DNA from: Desulfovibrio sp.
Lineage (GTDB): Bacteria > Desulfobacterota > Desulfovibrionia > Desulfovibrionales > Desulfovibrionaceae
Assembly (NCBI GenBank): GCA_031279825.1
Contig: JAITHT010000058.1
Location: forward strand, 1 to 63,413
DNA: 63,413 bases
Direction of reading: 5' to 3'
The notes beneath the pieces were generated by a model, which ran no database searches, had not been told where the DNA came from, and saw only the letters and a program-made list of their open reading frames with translations. The translations under genes and the position numbers were made by a program. Shown here piece after piece: positions 34,826 to 36,564 of this stretch. Every line of letters begins with the position of its first letter. Position 1 is the first letter of the stretch.

Positions 34826-35061
34826 TTTCCAGACCACCCAAGCATTGTATGCAGCTTGCCTGTTTCACCGAGCAGTACTTTTGTATTGTTGCCTTTGCGC
34901 GTTGAAGCTTTTTGAATTCGACCCTTTATTGTATTATTCAGTTTCTCTGTAAGATAATCAATAGAAGAACGCCGCGGCAAGCATGGCGGATGAAAGGCGA
35001 TTTTTGTCTTGCGTTATCAGGCGGTCGATGGTAGTTGTATTGATTTGGTAAGGGGGTGTGC
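34826..35061. other. Gene-free, AT-richer stretch between yhaN-like gene and the polysaccharide leader
   Basis: About 236 bp with lower GC than either side. A minus-strand frame across 34771-34980 and fragments further right look like decayed coding sequence, but no family was recognised. The stretch marks the boundary of the accessory locus. Confidence 0.35.
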
Positions 35062-35187
35062 GTGAAACAGGCCGGATTCCATATTGCATCGGGCAAATTT
35101 TCCGGCGCGATTAGCGTGACGGTTCATAGCGATTCGGCCCGATTATTGCACTTACTTACTTACTTACTTACTTACTTACTTACTTAG
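35062..35187 (+). CDS. Candidate phase-variable leader peptide containing the ACTT repeats
   Basis: GTG 35062 is preceded by AAGGGGG at 5-bp spacing. The frame encodes about 41 residues and enters the tetranucleotide repeat, where it reads as repeated Leu-Thr-Tyr-Leu. With nine repeats it ends at TAG 35185-35187. With eight or eleven it would continue in a second frame that is open to TGA 35426-35428, overlapping the next gene's ATG as ATGA. No protein family was recognised, so its value may lie in being translated. Expression is unproven. Confidence 0.4.
   Translation: MKQAGFHIASGKFSGAISVTVHSDSARLLHLLTYLLTYLLT
35150..35185. repeat. (ACTT)9 tetranucleotide repeat
   Basis: Nine perfect uninterrupted copies of ACTT occupy 36 bp about 240 bp upstream of the first polysaccharide gene. 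Tetranucleotide tracts of this length are classic substrates for slipped-strand mispairing and phase variation. Confidence 0.97.
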
Positions 35188-35215
35188 CTCATTTCCCCGC
35201 CAGCGTATTTTAAAA

Positions 35216-35246
35216 CGCGCGCCCCGCAAGGGTTTGCGCGGTTTTT
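35216..35246 (+). terminator. Candidate leader attenuator before the polysaccharide locus
   Basis: CGCGC (35216-35220) pairs with GCGCG (35236-35240), with inner CCC/GGG pairing, and TTTTT follows at 35242-35246. It lies between the ACTT repeat and the first gene, so it could terminate leader transcripts unless disrupted by translation. Confidence 0.45.
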
Positions 35247-35424
35247 GTCGTTTCCTCAACAGTCTTGTTTCCTGCCGAACAAAAAAGCTTACCGCCGTCC
35301 CTCGTCCAGCCGTCCAGCAGAAATGCTCCATGCGCAATCTTTGGACTTTTTGTCAGGACTATTATCTGGAGAAGCGTGGGGGCGACGACCCGTCTGGGTA
35401 CTGTTCCGACGGTGGAGGGCGCGC

Positions 35425-36564
35425 ATGATGCCCGTCCGTAGCGTCATAACCTTTGTCACCGGTCATTATTATCCCTCCAAGCGCAGGGGCGGCTTTCACA
35501 ATCTGGCGGACGCCGCGCACAGGGCCGGGCATCGCGTCAATTTCGTCACGACCGGCTTCAGCCTGATCTCCTATCTGCGCCGCGACTACCGCACCCGCAT
35601 TCCGGGCATTCGCGCGAACCTCAACCGTGCCCTGGAAATACGGCCGGGTTTCGTTTCCTACGTTCATTTTACGTCCTGGCATCCGCACACCCTTGTTCTT
35701 CCCCCGCTGGACCGCCTGACCGCGCCTTTCATGGAGGCATACGGCGAACGCGATCTCGGCGGATTGCTCCCTTTGGTGAAGGAGACGGACGTCTTTGTTT
35801 TCGAAAGCATGTCCGGCCTGTTTTTATACAAACGTTTCAAACGGGAGAATCCGGCGGCGCGGATGATCTACCGCGTTTCGGACGATGTCCGCCTTTTGGG
35901 GTCCACCCACCCCCGCCTGGTGAAACTGGAGCGGGAGATCTCGCCGCTTTTCGACCTGGTGAGCGTACCGACCGAGACCATGCTGGATATATTTTCCGGC
36001 GTGCCCAATCTCCGCCTGCACAGGCATGGCTTGGACAAAAGCGTATATGACGCCTGCCGGCGTTCGCCTTATCCCGAATACGGCCGCAACGCGGTTTTTG
36101 TGGGAGTCGCCTACTTTGACGCGGAGTCCGTCCGGCGTATGGCGCTCGGTTGCCCGGAGTGGCGTTTTCACATCATCGGCCCCATAAGGGACACCCTTGC
36201 CTTGCCCAATGCGCGTTTTTACGGGGAAATGCCCTTTGCCGAAACGCCGCCGTACGTCAAGTTCGCTGATACCGGGCTGATGAGCCTGCGCCGCAAAAAC
36301 GAATTTTCCCGCTCTTTTTCCGATTCGCTGAAAGTGCTCCAGTACCGGTATTGCGGTCTGCCGATCGTCTGCCCTGACTTTCTGGATTTGCGGCGTAACG
36401 GCGTTTTTTATTACCGGCCGGGCGACGCGGACTCCTGCGCGCGCGCCGTGCGGGAAGCCGGCATGTCGGGGCGTGATCCGGCCCGCGCGGAGGGGGTGCG
36501 CGACTGGGATGAAACGGCACGGGATATTGTAACCGAAGAAGGAAAACCATGTTTCCGATCATAG
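35425..36564 (+). CDS. GumK-like glycosyltransferase (GT70 family, probable glucuronosyltransferase)
   Basis: 379 residues from ATG 35425, with GGAGG about 6 bp upstream. The two-Rossmann GT-B layout resembles Xanthomonas GumK: TDVFVFESMSGLFLYKRFKRENPAARMIYRVSDD matches its VFESG...NPAAKLVYRASD region, LHRHGLDKSVYDA its HVGHGVD region, and VLQYRYCGLPIVCPDF its LLQYDFFGLPAVCP segment. GumK transfers glucuronate from UDP-GlcA to a lipid-linked glycan at the membrane. Here a diacetamido uronic acid donor from the next three genes is equally possible. First gene of the locus, it may be translationally coupled to the repeat-containing leader ORF. In-frame sequence upstream of 35425 is not convincing coding sequence. 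Confidence 0.82.
   Translation: MMPVRSVITFVTGHYYPSKRRGGFHNLADAAHRAGHRVNFVTTGFSLISYLRRDYRTRIPGIRANLNRALEIRPGFVSYVHFTSWHPHTLVLPPLDRLTAPFMEAYGERDLGGLLPLVKETDVFVFESMSGLFLYKRFKRENPAARMIYRVSDDVRLLGSTHPRLVKLEREISPLFDLVSVPTETMLDIFSGVPNLRLHRHGLDKSVYDACRRSPYPEYGRNAVFVGVAYFDAESVRRMALGCPEWRFHIIGPIRDTLALPNARFYGEMPFAETPPYVKFADTGLMSLRRKNEFSRSFSDSLKVLQYRYCGLPIVCPDFLDLRRNGVFYYRPGDADSCARAVREAGMSGRDPARAEGVRDWDETARDIVTEEGKPCFRS

Follow-up and report, generated by a model that had tools for sequence, protein, structure and literature searches.

What does a perfect tetranucleotide repeat do when it lies, within a short leader, directly ahead of a surface-polysaccharide locus? The question arises from a 63,413-nucleotide stretch of Desulfovibrio sp. 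DNA (hereafter the window) in which the first gene of such a locus encodes a GumK-like glycosyltransferase (35425..36564, + strand; Pfam GumK_N, 1.2e-45), the frames allowing a start at ATG 35425 or 35428. The next genes on the same strand, identified by Pfam, encode a GFO/IDH/MocA oxidoreductase, a DegT aminotransferase and a hexapeptide transferase (36549..39355). Upstream of the leader, at 28983-34825, Pfam recognises a calcineurin-like phosphoesterase and a large AAA/SMC-like protein that together look like an SbcD/SbcC-type pair. The genome to which the window belongs (G000) is a single consensus assembly of 2.2 Mb in 94 contigs and is 83% complete. An earlier note had read the repeat as a phase switch in which repeat number decides whether ribosomes cross a hairpin and hand translation to the locus, an interpretation that is largely supported by the sequence comparisons described here.

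Tandem Repeats Finder returned one ACTT array, at 35150-35186 on the + strand (9.2 copies, 100% matches), in agreement with the nine copies first reported; it is the top-scoring of the three arrays in the window and the proposed slippage tract. Runs of at least four consecutive ACTT units occur at only two places in the 2.2 Mb assembly, each within a leader of this kind. The leader ORF, as it reads with nine repeats, extends from GTG 35062 to TAG 35185-35187 (35062..35187, + strand), and the Shine-Dalgarno site assigned to it can be recognised as an SD-like AAGGGGG at 35050-35056. Counting frames from the GTG reproduced the stops given in the earlier note exactly: nine copies lead to the TAG at 35185-35187, ten to TAA 35211-35213, and eight or eleven to TGA 35426-35428, which overlaps ATG 35425 as ATGA. 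This pattern cycles every three copies across the 5 to 13 copies tried. From the end of the TAG to the core of the downstream hairpin there are 29 nt (nine copies), and from the end of the TAA only 3 nt (ten copies). The frame of the gumK-like gene is open backwards as far as 35188, so that in the nine-copy phase the TAG alone stands between the leader and the gene frame. Fusion of the leader to the gumK-like gene by repeat number was also considered and is excluded for 5 to 13 copies, as the phase in the gumK frame ends at TAG 35185.

The same genome contains a second ACTT leader, (ACTT)16 at 7187-7253 of contig C16, before another polysaccharide locus whose genes encode a GHMP kinase, a GT2 glycosyltransferase, a SIS protein and an RgpF/methyltransferase. 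The alignment of the two leaders begins at the start codon and takes in the repeat, the TAG and the first hairpin (hairpin 1), with GTG in the window opposite ATG in C16 and an SD-like stretch before each, which upholds the start proposed for the leader ORF. The C16 array is perfect and longer than that of the window; as assembled, each of the two leaders reads in the phase whose stop lies at the end of the repeat. The other two C16 phases stop 147 and 298 nt past the repeat; the gene begins about 409 nt past it, and none of the phases overlaps the gene start. In the gap between the C16 leader and the GHMP kinase gene (L009 7380-7660), an apparent broken glycosyltransferase start can be made out by eye. 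A third leader in this genome carries (AC)14 at about 32142-32170 of contig C56 (G000:C56, L212), with phases at +192, +1 and +14 nt, and its assembled allele is again in an early-stop phase. Downstream of this leader there is apparently just a gene fragment.

The terminator-like hairpin that had been proposed between repeat and gene has a core at 35216-35241 followed by TTTTT (35216..35246 with the T run, + strand; hairpin 1, the proposed attenuator). This core is homologous across related leaders (10 distinct sequences compared, L195 and L160 being one locus), but the hairpin taken by itself does not exceed chance. Against shuffles, the fold gave z scores of -1.27 for 35200-35260 and 0.15 for 35140-35260, and a terminator consensus scan found 1 site against a mean of 1.3 in shuffles. 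Hairpin 1 of C16 is likewise weak on its own (z 0.09); the C16 leader fold reaches z -3.53, with a strong hairpin 2. The second hairpin is intact in C16 and decayed in the window, where alignment with C16 and the C16 leader fold, read by eye, point to a remnant consisting of the 5' arm only (35258..35276, + strand). No match to a sigma-70-like promoter was found on the + strand in 34800-35600, and an Rfam search of 34800-35500 returned nothing up to E 1.

A gumK-like orthologue at 65% identity is present in 2 of the 14 other genus genomes. In G004 its leader carries (CT)24, with phases at -1, +12 and +178 nt and the gene start at +159; two phases stop before hairpin 1, the third passes both hairpins and the gene start, and the assembled allele is in the -1 phase. 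This succession of early stop, early stop and run-through backs the earlier idea of frame gating, as do the repeat units themselves: those in the leaders that were read are ACTT, AC, CT and, once, probably G, none of them a multiple of three. In G001 the orthologue is preceded by an (AC)21 leader and a vapBC-like pair, and one frame of the leader ends at +245, 7 nt beyond the start of the first gene. The gumK-like gene thus has three different repeats upstream in three species, with units of 4, 2 and 2 nt. The sequence, its frames and the recurrence of this arrangement with different repeat units are direct observations.

A comparable arrangement has been described in Streptococcus gallolyticus, where the pil1 and pil3 leaders are (GCAGA)n phase-variable attenuators (Danne et al. 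2014, PMC3894217). According to that article, tests on pil1 indicated that (GCAGA)n sets the length of the leader peptide and that ribosomes reaching the stem-loop prevent termination (PMC3894217). Its account of pil1 isolates gives a mixed, mostly low profile where 28 nt or more separate the leader stop from the terminator, and a mostly high one where the stop lies just before the terminator or translation runs through (PMC3894217). By analogy, this 28-nt rule would make nine copies OFF and eight or eleven copies ON, and ten copies may be partly ON.

On these grounds we think it likely that the element in the window is a slippage-driven phase-variable leader-ORF attenuator with coupling, working like pil1. 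A transcript from a putative upstream promoter would carry the short leader ORF, and slippage at (ACTT)n would shift the frame in which ribosomes exit the repeat. At nine copies, the assembled allele, and also at 6 or 12, they would stop 29 nt before hairpin 1, leaving the hairpin to form and transcription tending to end (OFF). At eight or eleven copies the ribosome would cross the hairpin and stop at the TGA overlapping the gumK-like ATG, so that termination would be prevented and translation handed on (ON). At ten copies the stop falls 3 nt before the hairpin, which the ribosome footprint might still disturb, giving an intermediate state. The three stops behind the three-state switch of the earlier note stand, and it is the ten-copy state that needs qualifying, since the pil1 model would allow it some expression. 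That the leader is transcribed, that transcription ends at the hairpin, that translation is coupled and that the repeat varies in living cells we infer from the arrangement; counting against an attenuator are the empty promoter search, a hairpin that alone stays within shuffles and the C16 copy without gene-start overlap.

Leaders of this type recur across the genus. The pattern GGCNNGNTNNTTGCA(CA)n occurs at 25 places in 10 of the 15 genus genomes (reversed controls, 0). When no motif is required, CA tracts of at least 8 units number 53 in 12 of the 15 genomes, and the 51 that were read all lie, by our reading, within such leaders; the other two (G014:C108 and G001:C169) were read for the motif only, and among the 51 a mobile-element end lies upstream in 4 and a contig end in 1. 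ACTT leaders occupy 3 places in 2 of the 15 genomes. Searching with the leader start gave 32 places, compared with 5 for the reversed control; 30 were fetched and 15 judged by eye to be leaders, comprising 6 intact CA tracts, 1 poly-G tract, 1 tract interrupted by a mobile element and 7 decayed repeats. The poly-G leader (L178, G006:C108) has a tract of more than 20 G at the repeat position, cut by the contig end. Three near-identical leaders in G005, with (AC)30, 21 and 21, are all in the same phase, a point against the switch. The BLAST places examined in detail were the two own-genome copies, G001:C195, G012:C73, three of G005, G006:C103 and G003:C112, the last being without repeat and without leader; the remaining places mostly had E above 0.01.

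In the surrounding family the CA form was found in 12 of 199 genomes, belonging to 2 of 44 genera, and the ACTT form, in a wider family search, in 2 of 288 genomes, the window's own and G099. The (ACTT)16 leader of G099 is in a run-through phase and resembles a decayed G001 leader. Similar leaders of different genera are seen at L218 ~1505-1568 (G099:C50) and L032 ~2815-2858 (G001:C195), one of them being (ACTT)16 and the other a decayed repeat in a fixed phase ending as ATGA at the next gene. Among named genome contigs there are 83 CA-form stretches, and 80 of these are listed by taxon: 36 Desulfovibrio or Deltaproteobacteria, 13 Prevotellaceae, 8 other Bacteroidales, Tannerella or Bacteroidia, 10 Treponema or other spirochaetes, 4 Betaproteobacteria, 2 other Proteobacteria, 1 Candidatus Adiutrix, 1 Holosporales, 2 Pseudomonadales and 3 Planctomycetota, the taxon titles being those of bins in which contamination is possible. 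Judging from isolate codes, the stretches presumably derive mostly from termite guts. One study reports 654 prokaryotic bins from termite-gut metagenomes (PMC9137090). Many, though not all, of the 40 named-contig stretches that were read have a short in-frame ORF before the repeat and a terminator-like stem after it. Downstream of the leaders, glycosyltransferases, sugar aminotransferases, chemotaxis receptors, response regulators and lactate permease were recognised by eye, and many gene names in relatives were assigned in the same way from translations.

Several features of these leaders can be compared with chance in a set of 88 CA members from all phyla, 3 of them short of upstream and 20 short of downstream length. 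Members were selected by the motif GG-N8-TTGC(AC)n, hence the set is no test of the motif, and many are related, which means that the shuffles overstate independence. Mononucleotide shuffles were used for ATG-ORF openness and gene-start counts, and dinucleotide shuffles for stop and stem counts. In frame 0, 60 of 85 members have an ATG ORF that stays open up to the repeat (15.8 expected), as do 20 in frame 1 and 9 in frame 2 (about 15 expected). At least one stop falls within 24 nt in 55/68 (shuffles 37.7, sd 3.7), and at least one frame stays open for at least 90 nt in 66/68 (shuffles 52.1, sd 3.0). The combination of two early stops with one run-through, as in the gumK orthologue of G004, is found in 16 of 68 members, where shuffles gave a mean of 3.8 (sd 1.8) and a maximum of 9 in 200 runs; at least two early stops alone, also 16/68, is a weak result (shuffle mean 9.9, sd 2.7, maximum 18). 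Terminator-like stems occur within 220 nt in 40 of 68, as opposed to 5 to 10 in ten shuffles. In 40 of the 49 members with a frame-0 leader, changes in repeat number give access to an early stop as well as to a run-through, and the present alleles of the 49 comprise 27 early, 3 middle and 19 late.

The claim of coupling to the gene start is backed in a third of members. Some frame ends between -4 and +40 nt of a gene start in 16 of 48 members (6.1 expected; starts taken by a simple rule, the 48 including the two members from which the idea came, the window and the G004 orthologue), or in 14 of 46 with these two removed. Such an ending is absent in C16, which was assigned no gene in this count. 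The leader ORF itself was compared in an alignment of 29 related leaders, 22 from the motif set with ATG exactly 72 nt before the motif and 7 from the leader-start search: its frame stays open in all but one of them (28 of 29), against 0 and 2 for the other frames, frame 1 often being closed by a TGA within the conserved sequence before the repeat. Amino-acid conservation of the leader was considered and rejected, as substitutions are equal across the three codon positions (1528, 1652 and 1657 differences). By these comparisons the openness of the leader is kept and its peptide is not. Decayed-repeat leaders were also considered as a natural test of the ON phase; of eight, 5 continue beyond both hairpins, 1 stops within hairpin 2 and 2 stop early, and the test was dropped, the run-through share being about the half expected.

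The conserved sequence before the repeat is kept more than the attenuator model needs. In the window this core, GGCCCGATTATTGCA (35136..35150, + strand), recognised from the sequence and its relatives, contains a sigma-54-like GG-N10-GC (35136-35149). Its general form, GGC-NY-G-NT-NN-TTGCA, abuts the repeat and can also be read as G-x-x-x-A in most leaders. It is possible, if unlikely, that a sigma-54 promoter (GG-N10-GC, here GGCCCGATTATTGC) lies just upstream and that the repeat is its start-site region, with repeat length tuning either escape from the promoter or the 5' end of the mRNA; the upstream ORF would then be incidental. In favour of this explanation, the core is kept in 43 of the 48 long genus CA tracts whose upstream sequence is intact (29 matched by pattern, 2 of these read no further, and 14 of the 19 others by eye). 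Relative to the leader ORF, the core is found in three different frames; it also occurs in several phyla, where the search pattern forced its presence, and rpoN is found in 11 of the 15 genus genomes, including 6 of the 6 good ones. However, the core is lost in 5 of the 48 tracts (L197, L202, L207, L213 and L215), as well as in the decayed-repeat leaders L175 and L183 and the poly-G leader L178, and rpoN was not found in the window's own genome, which is 83% complete. It was on account of these core losses and the rpoN result that a sigma-54 promoter is kept as a rival and not as the main explanation; nor does it explain the open leader frame, the non-triplet units or the pattern of stops and run-through.

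Termination might instead play no part, if a frame ending at the gene start simply hands ribosomes on and the hairpins do not terminate. L109, L121 and L143 have the ATGA overlap without a recognised terminator, and the window combines a decayed hairpin 2 with a hairpin 1 that is weak by itself. Such gating by translation alone nevertheless appears improbable to us, given that the family has far more terminator-like stems than chance would give (40/68 versus 5 to 10) and gene-start overlap is confined to 16 of 48 members and does not extend to C16. The same hairpin 2 remnant, together with the lack of a promoter match on the + strand of 34800-35600 and the frequency of decay (7 of the 15 leaders found by start sequence have decayed repeats), could mean that the window copy is a decaying or fixed relic and that the locus is expressed independently of the repeat. 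We regard this as very improbable, because neither the nine ACTT copies nor the longer C16 array contains a mismatch, and the stop of one run-through phase coincides with the gene start.

Several known systems resemble the attenuator that we favour. In Haemophilus lic1A, tetranucleotide slippage within the gene changes the reading frame at a surface-polysaccharide locus. The window would share with it tetranucleotide slippage and a change of frame, at the same kind of locus, but its repeat lies in a separate leader that no copy number tried (5 to 13) fuses to the gumK-like gene. In the trp, his and thr attenuators, formation of a terminator depends on where a ribosome stands on a leader ORF. 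Ribosome position would be the decider here too, although the variable is repeat number rather than an amino acid, and leaders reading (LTYL)n, (HT)n and (LS)n are followed by genes of unrelated kinds. The trp attenuator is also named in the gallolyticus study (PMC3894217). Like pil1, the window has a short leader ORF with a ribosome site and a non-triplet repeat inside, one phase that stops well before the stem-loop (29 nt, compared with 39 bp in pil1) and others that reach or cross it, and a surface-structure locus downstream. Unlike pil1, it belongs to a different phylum with different repeat units (ACTT, AC, CT) and genes; the run-through phase often ends at the start of the next gene, several leaders occur per genome, and a conserved core precedes the repeat.

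As far as the literature searched shows, repeat-gated attenuation had previously been tested in one species. We found no description of the cassette in Desulfovibrio or termite-gut bacteria in the open-access literature searched, and a term search of a recent review on phase variation (2025, PMC11868660) gave no hit for leader peptide, attenuation, terminator, gallolyticus or translational coupling. Here it looks like a recurrent arrangement with interchangeable units, several loci per genome and a wide taxonomic spread. More broadly, we suggest tentatively, as an idea a little less probable than its opposite, that a standard cassette (leader ORF, hypermutable repeat, early stops in OFF phases, terminator hairpins and a run-through often ending at the gene) governs numerous loci in each genome, for surface, chemotaxis and transport functions, in apparent termite-gut Desulfobacterota, Bacteroidota, Spirochaetota and Pseudomonadota, as community-wide repeat-gated attenuation, and that a family of integrating elements lands at the repeat. 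If so, the ON or OFF state of surface loci in uncultured gut bacteria could be predicted from their sequence, and long metagenomic reads could measure phase directly. Repeat scans confined to genes or promoters would miss such leader loci.

The integrating element carries a tyrosine recombinase (PF00589, E 3.2e-23, one copy tested; integrase at 5526-6779 of reverse-complemented L088) and seems to insert into the CA tract of leaders. Its junctions read (CA)nTTGCA... on one side and ...ATTGGA(AC)n on the other, the ends being seen on separate contigs, with one end in L059, L063, L073, L168 and L215 and the probable other end in L203, L205, L209 and L216. A second type of leader, with a very short ORF (M-x-M-I-S-A-R-F-L-HT...) and another hairpin, was seen in L041, L050, L058, L063, L069, L070, L073, L161, L201 and L213, and in L050, L058, L069 and L161 a vapBC-like pair lies downstream of it, as read by eye.
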